Assembly (NCBI GenBank): GCA_949289005.1
Contig: CASEMQ010000067.1
Coordinates: 1-64,000 of the forward strand
Reading direction: 5' to 3'
DNA length: 64,000 nt
Origin: an uncultured Lentisphaeraceae bacterium
Lineage (GTDB): Bacteria; Verrucomicrobiota; Kiritimatiellia; RFP12; DVOR01
Positions 43,681 to 51,776 of this stretch are shown here, piece after piece. The notes beneath the pieces are model-generated. The model saw only the letters and a program-made list of their open reading frames with translations, searched no databases and was not told where the DNA came from. Every line of letters begins with the position of its first letter. Positions within the stretch are counted from its first letter, which is position 1. Both the position numbers and the translations under genes were made by a program.

Positions 43681-46600
43681 TCACTCCCGGGACGATTGCA
43701 ACGCGGCATGCGCACGCAATTGCCTCAACGCCCCCTCGGGGAAATGCTCCTCGTCATACGGCACCCGGAAGTAACGCGTGTCGGCGGCCGAGGCGGTGCC
43801 CGGCGTCGCGCCGGTGAGGTCCGTCACCTCCACCGCATCCGTCACCTCCGCCTCCGCGTCCACGTTCTCCTCGTCCGTGTCGGCCCAGGTGAGATAGACG
43901 CGCGTGCTCTCGCGGAAGATCGCGGGCAACCGCGCCTCCGCCGTGTCGGCCAAGATGCCCTCGAAGGCGTTCGCGAGGTCGTTGCGCACCTTCACCTCCA
44001 CCACCACGTAGGTCTTCTCGGCCCCGTCCTCATCGGGCAGGGTGGCGAAGGCCATCGCGGAGATGCCGAACTCATAGGCCACGTAGAGGTTGCGGGCGTC
44101 CACGTATTCCTCGCCCTCGGCCTGGGTGGCGGCACCGCCGGGCGCCTTTTCGCTGAAGGCCAGGATGTTGCCGAAGCAGGTGATGGCCTCGCCAATCTCG
44201 CTCGCGTTCAGGTGCTGGGTCGAAGCCTTGGTCCGCCCCTGCGAGGTGCCGATGTAGGCCATGCCCTCGCCACGGTAGTGGTCAATCAACGCGTTCTCCA
44301 GAGTGTTCGCGTACTCGGGCTCCGCAGCCCCCTCGGCGAGATCCGTAGGCTCGGGGATGGAGGCCGGCTGCGCGTAGTACTCCGTCCCGCCGTTCACGAT
44401 GTGCGCGACGGTGTCCCACCGCGTCTTGCTGTTCGTGAATTGCGAAAGGATACGGCGGCGGACGTTCGGCGCGCTCGGACTCTCGTTCGGCTCGCGGCGA
44501 CCCGACTTCAGGAAGACCGTGTGTGCCGTGTAACCCTCCAGCAGGGCGGCGATGATGTTCGCCACGGCCACGTTGTCGCCGGGCAGGAAGCCCGCGACGG
44601 AGGTCAACGCCTCGCCCGTTACCACAGTGTACGTGGCGCCCGAGTCCAACCGCACCAAGCCGCCATCCACCGTGCCGCCGCCCGAAAGCGTCGCGCCCGA
44701 GGGAATGTGCGCCAAGAGATAGCCCGCGCCCGTCACCTTGCGCGCGCTGGCCGCCAAGGTCGCACCCACCGCCACGTGGAGGTCGTTCGCGCCGATGGGC
44801 GTGGTCGTCGTGCCGTTCGCCTGGGGTGCCACGCGAAGCGTGCCGGCCTCCACGCGCACCGGGCCCGAGACCGTCGGCGCCGTGGTGGCATAGAAGTCCA
44901 CCGTGCCCGCGCCCGTCTTCGTCAGGCCGAAGCCCTCGCCTGTCAACGCGACGGTGTGGCTGTGCCAGCTGTCGCCCTCGCCGGGCGCGGCGACCGTCAG
45001 CGTCGTGCCCTCCTGCGTGGCGACAATGCCGCCCTGCGCGGTGAAGTGCGGCAACGCCGTGGCCCCCTCGGTCCGCGAGCCACTCAACGTCGCCGTCTTG
45101 CCCAACAGCGTCAGCGCGCCACTCAGCACCACGCCGTCGTCCACGGCCGCATCGCCCGAGACGGCGGACTCCGCCTGGAAGGCAAAGGTCGCCCCCTCGC
45201 CGAGTTCCACGTCCGTGCCACGCAAAGGTCTCGTGCCTGTCTGGGCAATCGTCGCGCCGTCCTGGGCCACAAGCGTGTTGCCGTGCGTACGGAAGTCCTG
45301 CGCGCCGGAGAGCGTCAGCGTGCAGTCCTTCGCCACCTCCAGCCGCGGCACGGAGCTGATCGCGCCGAAGTCCCAATCGATGGTCGCGTCGCCGACGATG
45401 AGGGCGCCGTGCGCGCTCTCGCCCTTGTGGACGGGGATGGGCGTGCCCTCGGGCTTCAGGTTCAGCGCCATCTCGCCGCCGCCGTTGGAGACGTCGAACC
45501 GCGCCTCGGCCACCACGGAGCGATGGATGGTGAGCGGGGCCGCTCCCGTGAGGAAGAGCGTGGGCAGGTCGGCCGCGCCGTCCGCCGCGTCGTCCTCCAC
45601 GAAGAAGGTGTCGATCTCCGAGTCGGGGAGTTTGTCCAGGTTCAGCGTCACGTCGCTCTGGGCGGTGGCGAGGCGGATCTGGAAGGCCACGGCGTTGTCG
45701 AAGTCGGTGGCGGAGATGGGCGTGGGCGCCATGCCGCTGCGCGTCGCCGTCGCGGGCGTGCCCTCGTAGCCATAGCGATACCACGCCTGGGCGGAGAAGG
45801 CACCACCCTTCGCCTCATACCAGCCCGCGCCGTTCTCCTGGGTGAAGTCGAGGTAGAGGCGGCCGGGGGTCTGGACGGCGCGGGCGAAAAGGCCCGTGCC
45901 GTGGCCGTTCGCGTTGTCCGCCATCTTCACGCGCGTGATGTCGTAGAACTTCCAGTCCGCGTCCGCGCCGAACTTCGGTACCCAGACATCCAGCGAGGCC
46001 TGCGTCTTGTCCGCGTCCACGTCGTTGCCCGAGACGTTGGGCAGGTTCTCGGCCTCCATGTCCGCCCCCTCGACGACCACGGGCCCGGTGAGCTGCCAAT
46101 CCACCACCTCGTCGCGCTCCCCACGCGTCAGCGCCAACCCCGCCACCAAGCGAAGCGTGTTGGATTGCCCTCCCGGCGTCAGCGTCCCCACGAGCGTCCC
46201 CTCGTCTGTCCGCTCTTGGGAAATCCAAGAGTAGTCGTTCTCGCTACTTTCATAACCTATCCGCTTCCACGTTTCCGTGCGCGTCTGCGTGCCGGTCTGC
46301 GAAGCGGCCAAGACGATTTTGGCATACTTGGAGAAGACGCACACGCCGGCGTCGTAAACCCCGGCAAGCCCACTCTGCGCATTCGCCGTGTAGGTGTACG
46401 TGATGGTCTTGTGCCCCGTCTGTGTGACCGAGTACGACCCCGAAGACTCGACCTCCCCATCCCAGTCCACGTCGGACTCGCTCACGGTCATCTGCGTGTT
46501 ACCGCCCAAAAGATAGCTGGAGCCGTGGAAGTCGGGGATGGCGGGGTCGGCGTTGATGGGGTCGTCGGCGCCGCCGGTGAAGCGGAGGCGGCCATACGTG

Positions 46601-49600
46601 AAGCCTGTGCGGTTGCCTTCCGAGATGGGCTCGGTCGTTTTGTACCAGTCCCCGGCGACGACCTGGCTCTCCCACGCCGCGTTGGTCTCATCTTCCTCGG
46701 TCACTTCCTTCGCGGTCACGCCGAGGGGCGTGAGGCGGACGGTGCCGGCCTCGGATTGACCATCCTGCGGGGCGACGACGAGCGTGGCGTAGTTGCGGTT
46801 GGGGGAGTAGAAGTACCCACTCTCATTACGCGCGACGTTCACCTGGATGAGGTACTCGCCCGAAGCGACAAGGAGGCGGCACTCCGCGCCCTCGGCCGGC
46901 TCGGCCGTGCGCGTCCCGGTGGCCGTCCACGCGCCATTCTCATAGCGTTGCTCCACCCACGCCTGGGGCTGTACCCACGTCTCCCCACCCTCAGGGACGG
47001 CCAGCTGAGTGTTAGGTTCCGAGGTGATGGGGACGTAGCGGACGTAACGAAGGTTCTCGCGGACGTAGGGCGTGCGGTCGGCGATTTCCTGCATGGCCGT
47101 GTCGGTCAGCGCGCCCTTGTAGAAGCGGATGAAGTCGATGACGCCGCCCTCGGCCTCGCTCGGCGGATAGGCAAGTTGCCAGAAAGCCTCCGGGACGACG
47201 CCATGGCCACCCAACTGCGCGCCCACCTGCAGGCCACGGCCCAACCGGAAGCCCTCCAGATCGCCGGCCTCGGTGGAAGCAACGTAGGCGCCATCGAGAT
47301 AGAAGGTCATCGTGTCGCCGTCATACACCACCGAAACGGTGTGCGCGGAGGAGGTGGCATCGGCCAATTGCTTACGGAAAAGCTCCTCAGGCGGCTGCGC
47401 CGTGGCGTCTTGAGCGGGTCGCCCTGTGTTCCCATCGTATTCCGTCGCGTTGCGCCCGGTGAAGCGATAGAGCACGATTTCGTTGTCCGTGTTGCCGGTG
47501 GCGAGGACGAGCGCGTTACAGTTGTCCCACTCGGGGTTGTTCCCGGTGTTGTCGTTGTTGCCAAAGGCAACGAGACAACGATGACCGGCCGCCGGCAACC
47601 ACTCGCCCTGATTATTTCCATAATCCTCGTAGCGACGTTGGGCAACAGGCGCGGTGAACCGCACGGAGACGCTCCACGTCTCGGGATAGACAAGCGGGGT
47701 CTTCATGGCCACGTAGGGACGATAGTAGAGCGCAAGGCCGCCCTTGTCGTTGCGCGGATGACGCACCGCAGTGAAATAATCCTCCGCGGCCATGCCTTGG
47801 ATCGTATCAAACATCACTTTGTTGCCAAAGGGATTTTGACCGGGAGTCAAACCGCACAGCAAGCCATTGTTTGTGCGACCGTCCGTTTCCGCGGAACCAT
47901 CCTGACCGGTGAGCGTGAACCAGCCGGAGTTGCGGGTGTCGCCGTTGAACTCGACGTCGATCCAGGCGCCCTTGCCGGTGAAGACGGGATCATCCCAGGT
48001 GAGGGTGTCGGTGACGCCGCTCTCGTCGGCCTCCAAGCGGAAGTCCTCCGGAGGGCGGGAGGCGACCGCGCCGCTCTCGTCGAAGGAGGCGAAGTCCAGC
48101 GTAACGCCCGTGCCGACGGCGGGGATGTGGGGGAGGGTGAGGGCGCCGCCGTAGGCGCCGGACTCGATGAGGGTGAGCTTGATACCCTCGGGGTTGGCGG
48201 GCCAGCGGATGACGGCGTCGGCGTACTGGTCCAGGCGCATGGTGATGTGCTGGTTGTTGTTGATGCGGAAGGCGCCGGGGAGCTCCGTGAAGCCCTCCAC
48301 CGCCGAAAAGTCGATGTCCTTATGGTTCGTCGCGCTTGTGCCGGCGGTGAAACCGAGGGTGCCGTGATAGTCGGCGGCGATGGTGTTGGCGAGGTCGGCG
48401 AGCGTCTTGCCCTCCGCCGTGCCCCACGGGTCGTCGAGCGTAACCTCGCCGGGGGAGCCCAGAATGCTCACCACCCTGCCCTCGCCATAGAGCGTGCCGG
48501 TGAAGTCGCGCACGCGGTTGACCGCGACGCTTGCGTCCAAGGCCAACGTGCCACCATTGAGGCCACGAATTTCGTCGACCCCCAGATTGCCGGTGAGCGC
48601 ACACTGCCCGGCGCCGACGGTCATGAAGTTGTCCTCGCCGGTGCCGTTCGCGTCAACCGTAACGATCTTGACGGCATTGCCCGTGCCATTGATGGTGCCG
48701 GCGTTCAGGGTGAGCGAACGCCGCGCGGCGGGAACCATGTTCAGATCGTCGCCCAAATCCAACGTGCCGCCGTTCACCGTCAGCAGGAAGGCGCCCGAGT
48801 TGTCCGCGCCCGCCGCGAGGCCATTCCTCATCGCCAGCGTGCCGCCCGTAACGTTCACGCGCGTGGCCGTGTCGGCGTTCATGCCCGAGAGTCCACCCAC
48901 CGAGAAGGTGCCGCCCGCGACCGTGATGTCGGCGGAGCTGGCAAGCAACTGAAGCGCCCTCGTCGTTCCGGTGAGCGTCAATGCGCCGGCCTCCTGAATC
49001 ACGGCGGCAGAATTGCCCATTACCATCAACGCGGGGAACTCCCACGTATGGTCTCCCCGGAAAATCACCGTGCCGGGATAGCCCGTGTCACCCACGCGCA
49101 GATTGGCCCCCGCAACGTTTTGGTTCAGCACAAGGATGCCGGAGGCGCCGAGGTCGGAACGGTACTTGGCGGGGATGTCCGTGAGCCCCGTGGCCAACTC
49201 CAACGTGGAATCCTCCGCGGCGAAGGCCAGGTTGGGGAGGCGGCCCTCGGCGGTGTTCGCGGGCAACTCCAGGCGCACGGTGCGACCGGCGGGGATGGGG
49301 ACGATGTTCTTCTCGAACCAGTTTTTGTTCTCATCTTGCGTCCCCTCCGGCGAGGCGGGGAGCGGCGCGGCGAGCGTCAGGTCGCAGAGCAGGAGGAAGT
49401 CGGCGGGGTTCCAGATGTTCATGCCACCGCCGCTCGCGGGCGCTTGGAGCGTGATGCCGCCGGCGGTCGTGCCGTCGCGCAACGTGAAGGGCCCCGTGAG
49501 GGAAACGCCATCCGCGAATTGGAGGACGGCCTCCGCCGCGCTCTTGGACACGGAGGAGCCGGCCACGAAGGGCGAGTTCGTCAACGTTTTGTCCAACGTC

Positions 49601-50268
49601 AGCGTGCCACCGTTCCCGGAGAACTCGACGACCACGACGGTGTCCTGCCCATCCGCGAAGTCCCCGCCCAGCTCGTCCTCCAGACTGTGAGTTCCGCCAT
49701 CCGCGATTTCAATCACGTGGCGCGTCAGACGCGCCGTGCCCGTTACGATGGCATGGATGGCTTCATCCACCGTCCGCAAGGACGCCTCCGTGCCGACGCC
49801 CGTGGCACCCAGACCCGAGAGCGTGTACGCGCCGCCCGTAGCCAGCGTGGCCGACCCCTCGTAGGTTACAAAGACCACTGCGTGCCCCATACCATCCGCG
49901 TCCGTCACCGTCGTCTCGGCGCCAACCGAAGTCTGCGTGAAGGTTTCCTCGCCCACCGTGAAGGACTGAGGATAGGTGTTGTCCGTGCGCGGCACAAAGC
50001 CCAGCGCGATGGACGAGACGGTCAGCGACGAGGGATTGAAGTTGATGGGGCGGGCGCTCCCGTCGTCCAACGTGATGGTGCGGTCGAAGACCGCGTGGGT
50101 CAACGTCAGCGTCAGCGAGGCGCTGTTCGCCTCCACCGTGTCAAGCTCCCCTCGGCTCCCGGCCGTGGAATAGATCAACGTTCGGGCGCTCACATCGACC
50201 GTCGTCGCCGCGAAGGCGGCGGTGGCCAACCCAAGAGCAACAGCAGCAAGGGCCATCCTGCGTTTCAT
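43681..50268 (-). CDS. Giant secreted surface protein with autotransporter-type repeats and a LamG domain
   Basis: The protein has 2195 residues; the ATG is behind GAGGGA. A signal peptide (MKRRMALAAVALGLATAAFA) is followed by beta-strand-rich passenger sequence. Short repeats such as GTFSVGGLSG and VNGGTLDLGDD (about 400-600) fall in it. A LamG/concanavalin-like domain (about 830-1060) has VSVVYDGDTMTFYLDGAYV. Further beta-rich sequence contains a PATR-like repeat GFGLTKTGAGTVDFY with VRVEAGTLRV near 1780-1815. The C-terminus is acidic (EENVDAEAEVTDAVEV) and lacks a recognisable beta-barrel or anchor. It is probably an adhesin or glycan-binding surface protein. Its promoter carries a nine-base homopolymer, suggesting phase-variable expression. 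Confidence 0.82.
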   Translation of the reverse strand: MKRRMALAAVALGLATAAFAATTVDVSARTLIYSTAGSRGELDTVEANSASLTLTLTHAVFDRTITLDDGSARPINFNPSSLTVSSIALGFVPRTDNTYPQSFTVGEETFTQTSVGAETTVTDADGMGHAVVFVTYEGSATLATGGAYTLSGLGATGVGTEASLRTVDEAIHAIVTGTARLTRHVIEIADGGTHSLEDELGGDFADGQDTVVVVEFSGNGGTLTLDKTLTNSPFVAGSSVSKSAAEAVLQFADGVSLTGPFTLRDGTTAGGITLQAPASGGGMNIWNPADFLLLCDLTLAAPLPASPEGTQDENKNWFEKNIVPIPAGRTVRLELPANTAEGRLPNLAFAAEDSTLELATGLTDIPAKYRSDLGASGILVLNQNVAGANLRVGDTGYPGTVIFRGDHTWEFPALMVMGNSAAVIQEAGALTLTGTTRALQLLASSADITVAGGTFSVGGLSGMNADTATRVNVTGGTLAMRNGLAAGADNSGAFLLTVNGGTLDLGDDLNMVPAARRSLTLNAGTINGTGNAVKIVTVDANGTGEDNFMTVGAGQCALTGNLGVDEIRGLNGGTLALDASVAVNRVRDFTGTLYGEGRVVSILGSPGEVTLDDPWGTAEGKTLADLANTIAADYHGTLGFTAGTSATNHKDIDFSAVEGFTELPGAFRINNNQHITMRLDQYADAVIRWPANPEGIKLTLIESGAYGGALTLPHIPAVGTGVTLDFASFDESGAVASRPPEDFRLEADESGVTDTLTWDDPVFTGKGAWIDVEFNGDTRNSGWFTLTGQDGSAETDGRTNNGLLCGLTPGQNPFGNKVMFDTIQGMAAEDYFTAVRHPRNDKGGLALYYRPYVAMKTPLVYPETWSVSVRFTAPVAQRRYEDYGNNQGEWLPAAGHRCLVAFGNNDNTGNNPEWDNCNALVLATGNTDNEIVLYRFTGRNATEYDGNTGRPAQDATAQPPEELFRKQLADATSSAHTVSVVYDGDTMTFYLDGAYVASTEAGDLEGFRLGRGLQVGAQLGGHGVVPEAFWQLAYPPSEAEGGVIDFIRFYKGALTDTAMQEIADRTPYVRENLRYVRYVPITSEPNTQLAVPEGGETWVQPQAWVEQRYENGAWTATGTRTAEPAEGAECRLLVASGEYLIQVNVARNESGYFYSPNRNYATLVVAPQDGQSEAGTVRLTPLGVTAKEVTEEDETNAAWESQVVAGDWYKTTEPISEGNRTGFTYGRLRFTGGADDPINADPAIPDFHGSSYLLGGNTQMTVSESDVDWDGEVESSGSYSVTQTGHKTITYTYTANAQSGLAGVYDAGVCVFSKYAKIVLAASQTGTQTRTETWKRIGYESSENDYSWISQERTDEGTLVGTLTPGGQSNTLRLVAGLALTRGERDEVVDWQLTGPVVVEGADMEAENLPNVSGNDVDADKTQASLDVWVPKFGADADWKFYDITRVKMADNANGHGTGLFARAVQTPGRLYLDFTQENGAGWYEAKGGAFSAQAWYRYGYEGTPATATRSGMAPTPISATDFDNAVAFQIRLATAQSDVTLNLDKLPDSEIDTFFVEDDAADGAADLPTLFLTGAAPLTIHRSVVAEARFDVSNGGGEMALNLKPEGTPIPVHKGESAHGALIVGDATIDWDFGAISSVPRLEVAKDCTLTLSGAQDFRTHGNTLVAQDGATIAQTGTRPLRGTDVELGEGATFAFQAESAVSGDAAVDDGVVLSGALTLLGKTATLSGSRTEGATALPHFTAQGGIVATQEGTTLTVAAPGEGDSWHSHTVALTGEGFGLTKTGAGTVDFYATTAPTVSGPVRVEAGTLRVAPQANGTTTTPIGANDLHVAVGATLAASARKVTGAGYLLAHIPSGATLSGGGTVDGGLVRLDSGATYTVVTGEALTSVAGFLPGDNVAVANIIAALLEGYTAHTVFLKSGRREPNESPSAPNVRRRILSQFTNSKTRWDTVAHIVNGGTEYYAQPASIPEPTDLAEGAAEPEYANTLENALIDHYRGEGMAYIGTSQGRTKASTQHLNASEIGEAITCFGNILAFSEKAPGGAATQAEGEEYVDARNLYVAYEFGISAMAFATLPDEDGAEKTYVVVEVKVRNDLANAFEGILADTAEARLPAIFRESTRVYLTWADTDEENVDAEAEVTDAVEVTDLTGATPGTASAADTRYFRVPYDEEHFPEGALRQLRAHAALQSSRE

Positions 50269-50367
50269 AATCAGTCCCTCTTTTTGTCAAAGGGTTGCCG
50301 CCCCCGTTTTATACCCCCAATTACACACACGGGGACAAAAACATGAGGGCCGAAAAAAGAGGAGGAT

Positions 50368-50397
50368 ATTATAATCTCCCAAGGGGGGGGGTGTCAA
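50368..50397 (-). promoter_or_regulatory. Consensus promoter with homopolymer spacer (candidate phase switch)
   Basis: On the minus strand TTGACA (50397-50392) and TATAAT (50373-50368) are both perfect and lie 18 bp apart. The first nine spacer bases are C (G at 50383-50391). Upstream is A/T-rich (AAATAAAGTAAGATAAAAG), like an UP element. The predicted start near 50361 gives a leader of about 93 bases to the giant surface-protein gene. It lacks the TG extension found at the other promoters. Confidence 0.85.
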
Positions 50398-50633
50398 GTG
50401 CTTTTATCTTACTTTATTTCAACAACTTACGACAAACAATCAGGCTTATGCGCGGCAGCCTGCGCCGGGATGTCTCCGCGGAGTCGCGGACGAAAGTTCG
50501 TGCCCCGTACCCGACAGGCAACGACGCCACCGGATTGGAAAAGACCGGACTGCCGAGGGAAAAGCAAAGAAGACCCAAGCGGCTTACCCGCGTGGCGCCC
50601 GGGGTGGCCGCGGGACGCCCGACCCCTGTGAGC
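50398..50633. other. Intergenic stretch without recognised gene
   Basis: An A/T-rich start (part of the UP-like region) is followed by GC-rich sequence with a small hairpin CCGCGG-AGT-CGCGG-like near 50477. No gene or RNA was recognised. Confidence 0.4.
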
Positions 50634-50793
50634 GATGCGCCGTCTCTCAGGGTGAGATACGGCGTGTCTCGGGGTGAGATACGGCGCATCCCGAAAAACG
50701 ACCCCGCTCCCTGATTGAAAAAAGGGATTTGGGCCCCTGGCGGCCCCGTCCAGTTTCAACAGGTTTTCAACAGGTTTGCGAAAGTTATCAACA
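50634..50793 (+). repeat. Intergenic palindrome/nonamer element, copy C (upstream of folD)
   Basis: GATGCGCCGTCTCTC, GAGATACGGCGTGTCTC and GAGATACGGCGCATCCCG form nested inverted repeats (outer GATGCGCCGT/ACGGCGCATC). CGAAAAACGACCCCGC and TCCCTGATTGAAAAAA follow. Then come the nonamers GTTTCAACA (50753-50761), TTTTCAACA (50764-50772) and TTATCAACA (50785-50793), with GTTTGCGAAAG between the second and third. The spacing of 11 and 21 bp equals that of copies A and B. An extended -10 follows 53 bp after the last nonamer. Confidence 0.78.
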
Positions 50794-50822
50794 GTGCATC
50801 CCGCGAGGCGCGGGGCTTCGGT

Positions 50823-50851
50823 TTGCGGAAGTGTGCCGCTTGTGGTATGGT
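50823..50851 (+). promoter_or_regulatory. folD promoter, extended -10
   Basis: TTGCGG (50823-50828), 17 bp, TATGGT (50846-50851) preceded by TGG. The predicted start near 50858 gives a leader of about 25 bases with GGAG (50871-50874) well placed before the ATG. Confidence 0.55.
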
Positions 50852-50882
50852 GAGGGCAAGTCTAGAGATTGGAGTTTAGATC

Positions 50883-51776
50883 ATGAGAGCGGAAGTGATC
50901 GATGGCAAGGCGTTGGCCGCGGAGACGCGCGAGCGGGTTCGGGCGCGGGCGGCGGCGTTGCGGGAGCGCACGGGTGTGACGCCGGCGCTGGGCGTGATTT
51001 TGGTGGGCGACGACCCGGCCTCGCGCAGTTACGTGACGGCAAAGGAACGCGCGCTGGCGGAGGCGGGGATGCGCTCGGTGGACATCCGCCTGCCGGCGGA
51101 GACGACACAGGCGGAGCTGCTGGCGCGCATCGCGCAACTGAACGCGGACGACTCGGTGCATGGCATTTTGGTGCAGCTGCCGTTGCCGCGGGGGTTGGAC
51201 GCGGAGGCCGTGATCCGCGCGATCGACCCGCGCAAGGACGTGGACGGCTTCACGCCGATCAACGTGGGAAAGATGCTTTTGGGACAGGACTGTTTCCTGC
51301 CGTGCACGCCGCATGGGGTGCTGCGGCTGCTGGAAAAGGCGGGCACGCCCACGCGCGGGGCGCACGCGGTGGTGGTGGGGCGCAGCGCCATCGTGGGGCG
51401 GCCGCTCGCCAACCTGCTCGCGCGCAAGGCGCCGAACGGCGACGCGACGGTGACGCTCTGCCACGCCGCGACGCCCGACCTGGCCGCGCACACGCGCCGG
51501 GCGGACATCCTCGTGGCGGCGGTCGGCCGGGCCGGCGTCATCACGGGCGACATGGTGAAGCCCGGCGCCACGGTGATCGACGTGGGGGTGAACCGCGTGG
51601 CCGACCCGGAGGCGCCGAAGGGTTACCGCCTGCGCGGCGATTGCGACTTCGCGAGCGTGGCGGAGGTGGCGGGGAAAATCACGCCGGTGCCGGGCGGCGT
51701 GGGGCCCATGACCATCGCCATGCTCCTGGAAAACACCGTCATCGCGGCGGAACGCGCGGCGGGGGCACCGGCATGA
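50883..51776 (+). CDS. folD: Bifunctional methylene-THF dehydrogenase / methenyl-THF cyclohydrolase
   Basis: The protein has 297 residues, full length. Motifs: [19 protein letters not shown] (catalytic Lys), [55 protein letters not shown] (NADP-binding) and [21 protein letters not shown]. It interconverts methylene-, methenyl- and formyl-THF, linking to the folB and pur genes elsewhere in the window. The stop overlaps the next start (ATGA). Confidence 0.97.

Follow-up and report, generated by a model that had tools for sequence, protein, structure and literature searches.

A probable slippage-controlled promoter of a giant surface-protein gene belongs to a genus-wide set of homopolymer-tract promoters in uncultured Kiritimatiellota

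The run of nine C in the promoter of a giant surface-protein gene of the window (the whole 64-kb stretch of DNA analyzed here) is most probably a slipped-strand contingency element placed between the -35 and -10 hexamers, and one of a genus-wide set of such elements. The set is best read as a multi-locus slippage system of the porA/fetA type, which, going by our literature search, is new for the phylum, with cassette exchange of the exposed domains in addition.

Results

The window promoter and the protein behind it

Read from 50397 to 50368 on the minus strand, the promoter is TTGACA-C9-TTGGGAGAT-TATAAT, with two perfect hexamers and an 18-bp spacer that opens with nine C, just as an earlier note on this DNA had described it. 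About 100 nt downstream, a gene of 2195 codons begins with an ATG at 50268, and the Sec-type N-terminus of its product agrees with the 2195-residue signal-peptide protein named in the same note. Transcription is predicted to start near 50361, which would give a 5' leader of ~93 nt. The features are as follows.

50392-50397, minus strand: -35 hexamer TTGACA (sequence, pattern count and promoter scan)
50383-50391, minus strand: C9 homopolymer CCCCCCCCC within the promoter spacer, proposed to be the slippage element (homologs carry poly-G in the same place)
50374-50382, minus strand: remaining spacer TTGGGAGAT (sequence)
50368-50373, minus strand: -10 hexamer TATAAT (sequence and promoter scan)
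50276-50280, minus strand: GAGGG, probable ribosome-binding site (by eye)
43681-50268, minus strand: gene of the giant secreted protein, 2195 aa, signal peptide-like N-terminus (ORF and homolog search)

The pattern TTGACA-N15..20-TATAAT matches the 64-kb window once, at this promoter, where shuffled sequences lead one to expect 0.00 matches, and the same promoter is the sole sigma-70-type match in 50200-50900, agreeing at 12/12 hexamer positions. Runs of nine C, on the other hand, occur in the window at chance frequency (3 overlapping matches vs 3.15 expected from shuffles). As the C9 run taken alone is therefore unremarkable, the case has to be judged by comparison with relatives. The window locus itself is known from a single assembly of one species, with the one tract length C9.

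The locus does have the makeup of a porA/fetA-type switch. A pure homopolymer of the requisite length (at least about 8) lies between -35 and -10, i.e., the C9 at 50383-50391; the promoter is recognizable, with perfect hexamers and a spacer of 18 bp where such switches have a spacing near 17, also the mode in the genus; and the gene that it drives encodes a secreted or surface-exposed protein, with the signal-peptide N-terminus judged by eye. The window spacer is thus one base off the 17-bp genus mode, bearing in mind that homopolymer lengths in a MAG consensus may err by one base. Upstream of the promoter, at 50634-50793 (minus strand), there is an intergenic repeat of ~160 bp with palindromic GATGCGCCGTATCTC-type segments, present in >30 copies in its own genome at 76-84% identity and in two congeners as short matches only.

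The domain labels that the earlier note had given the protein, LamG and autotransporter-type repeats, found weak backing. Laminin_G_3 scores 17.0 bits (residues 972-1057) against a Pfam cut-off of 27.6, PATR 17.7 bits against 27, and TIGR02601 18.6 bits against 19.85. With PATR below threshold and the Pfam and NCBIfam profiles finding no beta-barrel domain at the C-terminus or elsewhere in the protein, we rejected its identity as an autotransporter. We likewise rejected its identity as a PEP-CTERM protein, as neither PF07589 nor TIGR02595 matches it and its C-terminus reads HAALQSSRE. The giant-family profile retrieved no solved relative apart from a weak match to laminarinase (E 0.89, at profile positions 948-985), and no relative of the protein was found in the viral contigs searched.

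Spacer tracts upstream of giant-protein homologs

Homologs of 2-2.5 kaa occur in 13 of the 17 genomes of the genus; in an alignment of 17 members, they are 29-60% identical to the window protein. A tract lies in the promoter spacer of nine family members from six species, the window's included, with lengths of 9-11 and one tract interrupted. The G007 homolog has TTGACC-G10-TAAGTAT-TATAAT and a second G007 copy TTGACA-G10, the homologs in G015, G006, and G005 have TTGAC-G10, TTGAC-G9, and TTGAC-G9, respectively, and a giant paralog in the window's own genome has TTGAT-G11. In a more distant G015 paralog, G9 sits immediately 5' of TATAAT.

The family tree places the window protein (C9) with those of G007 (G10) and G015 (G10) in one fully supported clade. 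The run has therefore kept its spacer position through a change in the strand that bears C or G, and selection for a homopolymer as such would fit this change better than a base-specific binding site does. Taken with a second poly-C promoter in the window's own genome, described below, this points to the length of the run mattering and not its base or strand.

Not all family members keep a pure tract. The run of one homolog (L089, in G003) is interrupted, GGGAGGGGGGG, and members that have no tract, e.g., L087 and L092, have ordinary promoters with a 17-bp spacer. Such interrupted and lost tracts raise the possibility that the window promoter is a former switch, now locked, whose C9 rarely slips. 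We regard this as unlikely, since the window run is pure and has the modal length for the genus of 9-10; a run that still slips remains the preferred reading.

A third giant paralog in the window's own genome (L084, G000:C70:58000-67000, 2085-2202) has no spacer run and instead carries a C9 located 109 nt past its likely ATG. The signal-peptide frame stops after 43 codons, and the long frame beyond the C9 is a different one. The arrangement is as in a translational switch that would be out of frame in the assembly, or it may reflect an assembly error.

A genus-wide set of tract promoters

We scanned the 17 genomes of the genus, namely the window's own 2.36-Mb assembly and 16 congeners, with the pattern TTGA-N0..6-G8-N1..13-TANNNT and took the reversed pattern as control. 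The scan gave 97 poly-G matches, some of them overlapping, in 13 genomes vs 3 for the reversed control, and the richest genome (G015) had 19. The poly-C version is rare, with the window promoter and one other site vs 2 control matches. Outside the scan pattern, the window's own genome has a second poly-C promoter (-35 TTGCCC) upstream of a PEP-CTERM gene and several poly-G promoters whose -35 is of the TTGC type, likewise with PEP-CTERM genes downstream.

Among the 86 sites that we catalogued, tracts are 8-14 long (mode 9-10). Spacers range over 13-21 and most often measure 17 (29 sites), followed by 16 (20 sites) and 18 (15 sites). Two layouts recur. In one the run adjoins the -35 (TTGACGGGG...), and in the other, which is well conserved, it adjoins the -10: TTGACNNNN[A/T]-G9-10-TGG-TATNNT. 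The spacers have a variance of 2.13, compared with 3.52 after random reassignment of tract lengths to sites (0 of 5000 shuffles as low), although the search pattern (spacer range, TTGA, TANNNT) conditions these statistics and accounts for part of the reduction. Such a low variance indicates that spacing is constrained, i.e., that runs and flanks compensate for one another and keep the promoter geometry.

A simple rule assigns 68 of the 86 sites to surface or secreted targets, namely 45 genes with a PEP-CTERM tail, 13 for giant secreted proteins, and 10 for other signal peptide-like proteins; 14 sites are other or unclear, and 4 fall at contig ends. All five small target proteins that we checked score above the Pfam cut-off for PF07589; four of these were also searched against NCBIfam, and all four exceed the cut-off for TIGR02595. 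In the window's own genome, about 32 genes score above cut-off as PEP-CTERM genes, and among the upstream regions read, about eight of these have a run of at least 9 in a promoter-like spacer.

That genome has 43 runs of at least 9, the majority of which fall within open frames or at the ends of contigs. Its contigs C14, C56, C68, and C69 have long C/G runs, of up to 16, at their ends or very close to them, so assembly breaks may have removed some tract loci. We considered loss of mismatch repair as the origin of the runs and rejected it because mutS is present (14 of 17 genomes, the window's included).

Sister species: tract lengths and mature domains

At orthologous loci of sister species, tract length differs in several otherwise conserved promoters. 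L166 has G10 and L191 G12 in two species with a promoter region 99% identical, L141 has G11 and L178 G10, L137 has G11 and L164 G10, and L146 has G9 and L177 G8 plus one adjacent substitution; the pairs L144/L172 and L164/L193 have no tract-length difference. Differences of this kind are the expected trace that slippage would leave, here read between species rather than within a clone.

Syntenic PEP-CTERM loci of sister species differ in a second way. In six pairs (L146/L177, L166/L191, L137/L141, L144/L172, L164/L193, and L141/L178), the promoter and signal-peptide region is 84-97% identical by blastn. In five of the six, similarity ends ~57-66 nt into the gene, returns 71-125 nt before the stop codon, and then runs on for kilobases; the middle part is unrelated by blastn, and the proteins are 34-39% identical over their length. 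The sixth, L141/L178, has a left block that covers more of the gene and a right block that begins earlier, and its proteins share 53% identity. In contrast, the pair L137/L164 is alignable throughout. The mature domain of L166 (G005) recurs in G001 behind a different promoter (L189) with 75% protein identity. With the ends constant and the middle replaced, the exposed domains appear to be exchanged as cassettes, and recombination would have taken place inside the shared signal-peptide and tail sequences.

Distribution beyond the genus

A tighter pattern run over the window's order found tract promoters in one third of the genomes (54 of 162), spread over 15 of 33 genera, with two reversed-control matches among the tabulated results. 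Two genomes of another genus (G114 and G116) are rich in them, upstream of large secreted proteins. In the rest of the phylum, the same class gave 17 matches vs 6 control and other classes 6 vs 8. With matches outside the order being few and fading toward control level, it is this order to which the dense set is confined.

In other genera, most of the secreted proteins encoded downstream of poly-G promoters (L362-L369, L373, L375-L377, L380, and L381; genomes G116, G114, G018, G053, and G107) close with a few hydrophobic residues and a final R, e.g., ..FALMVR, ..FSLSIR, ..LTILVR, and ..ISIILR. This ending may be a short sorting tail of a kind not yet described.

The matches listed in a wider genome collection include rabbit-gut Bacilli assemblies with several such promoters each. 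In the Bacilli MAGs CANQIE and CANQPR, TTGACNTG9TAGTTTTATAAT or TTGACG10TATTATATAAT is repeated upstream of single-TM, membrane-anchored surface-type proteins (L234, L240, L258, L267, L279, L286, L287, and L292; L225, L229, L244, and L291). The sequences suggest convergence.

Discussion

The proposed switch and its alternatives

In the switch that we propose, a replication slip would add or remove one C and so set the spacer at 17, 18, or 19 bp, and the change in spacing would alter how strongly RNA polymerase binds. The level of the giant protein would then differ from cell to cell in a heritable yet reversible manner. Slippage would occur within a clone, expression could be graded or on/off, and the benefit might lie, for example, in evading phage or host or in changed adhesion. 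The window promoter would be one member of a genus-wide set, mostly poly-G, that drives giant secreted and PEP-CTERM-anchored proteins. The earlier note had inferred a phase-variable switch at this one promoter, which the recurrence in the genus (97 vs 3), the tract-length differences, and the use of either G or C make very likely; it overlooked the genus-wide scale, the fact that most tracts are poly-G, the PEP-CTERM proteins among the targets, and the swapping of mature domains.

A fixed function of the run is a rival reading. The run could act as a binding site or as a stiff or G-quadruplex-forming part of the spacer, fixing promoter strength or being recognized by a regulator, with no switching through its length. 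The conserved layout next to the -10 could suggest such a fixed regulatory box, but tracts and spacers vary over the ranges given above, the tract adjoins the -35 in one layout and the -10 in the other, C stands in place of G in two promoters, and orthologous promoters that are otherwise conserved vary in tract length. We hold a fixed function to be quite improbable, and slippage remains our reading of the run. That a GC-rich genome with many C/G runs simply had one land in a promoter would suit the 43 runs and the window count of C9 at the shuffle mean, but it is barely credible for the window promoter and is refuted for the whole set by the 97 vs 3 matches, the recurrence among homologs of the window gene, and the concentration on surface-protein genes.

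Taking promoters and domains together, we lean toward two layers of variation in these uncultured Kiritimatiellota. Many slippage promoters would determine the repertoire of PEP-CTERM and giant proteins produced, and mature domains encoded by the same PEP-CTERM genes would be swapped as cassettes between a constant module of promoter and signal peptide and a constant sorting tail, with a similar design having apparently arisen independently in rabbit-gut Bacilli. If this is true, stochastic control by slippage, which has been studied mostly in a few pathogens, acts genome-wide in an uncultured lineage, and PEP-CTERM sorting is linked to phase variation and domain exchange. Slippage promoters may be a common and overlooked means by which uncultured gut bacteria diversify their surfaces, and TTGAC-poly-G-TATNNT offers a simple signature for finding such sets in metagenomes.

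Comparison with known systems

A search on Kiritimatiellae phase variation retrieved no literature, in line with the earlier note, which knew of no such switch in this group of bacteria; searches on PEP-CTERM in Kiritimatiellota and on homopolymer promoters in gut metagenomes likewise found none, in a literature that excluded most subscription journals. Of the four papers found that mention both phase variation and PEP-CTERM, none, judged by its title, concerns phase-variable control of this protein class.

In Neisseria porA, fetA, and opc, a homopolymer between -10 and -35 alters expression through spacing (PMC5320596, PMC2791445), so the precedent that the earlier note drew from porA and fetA is an established one (PMC2791445, PMC5320596). 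The Kiritimatiellota promoters share with these three genes a homopolymer of similar length in a sigma-70 spacer, a surface-protein target, and a length that differs between strains or related genomes, and the poly-C tract of the window promoter is like that of fetA. Unlike Neisseria, for which three transcriptional cases are listed in the gonococcus (PMC2791445, PMC5320596), Kiritimatiellota yield as many as 19 matches to the scan pattern in one genome, poly-G for the most part, and their targets are PEP-CTERM and giant secreted proteins. Intragenic mononucleotide runs of Akkermansia muciniphila, termed Verrucomicrobia there, have been suggested to be phase-variable (PMC3048395). Those runs lie in coding regions whereas the Kiritimatiellota tracts lie in promoter spacers, and the accessible part of that report describes no promoter-spacer set (PMC3048395).

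About half of the tract-promoter genes bear the tail of PEP-CTERM/exosortase proteins (PF07589, TIGR02595), unlike the window protein, which is without it. Gene conversion of pilin or vlsE is an example of cassette-type antigenic variation. The PEP-CTERM loci resemble these cassettes in keeping their ends and replacing the exposed part, and differ from them in that the swaps are seen, by sequence comparison, solely between species at orthologous loci.
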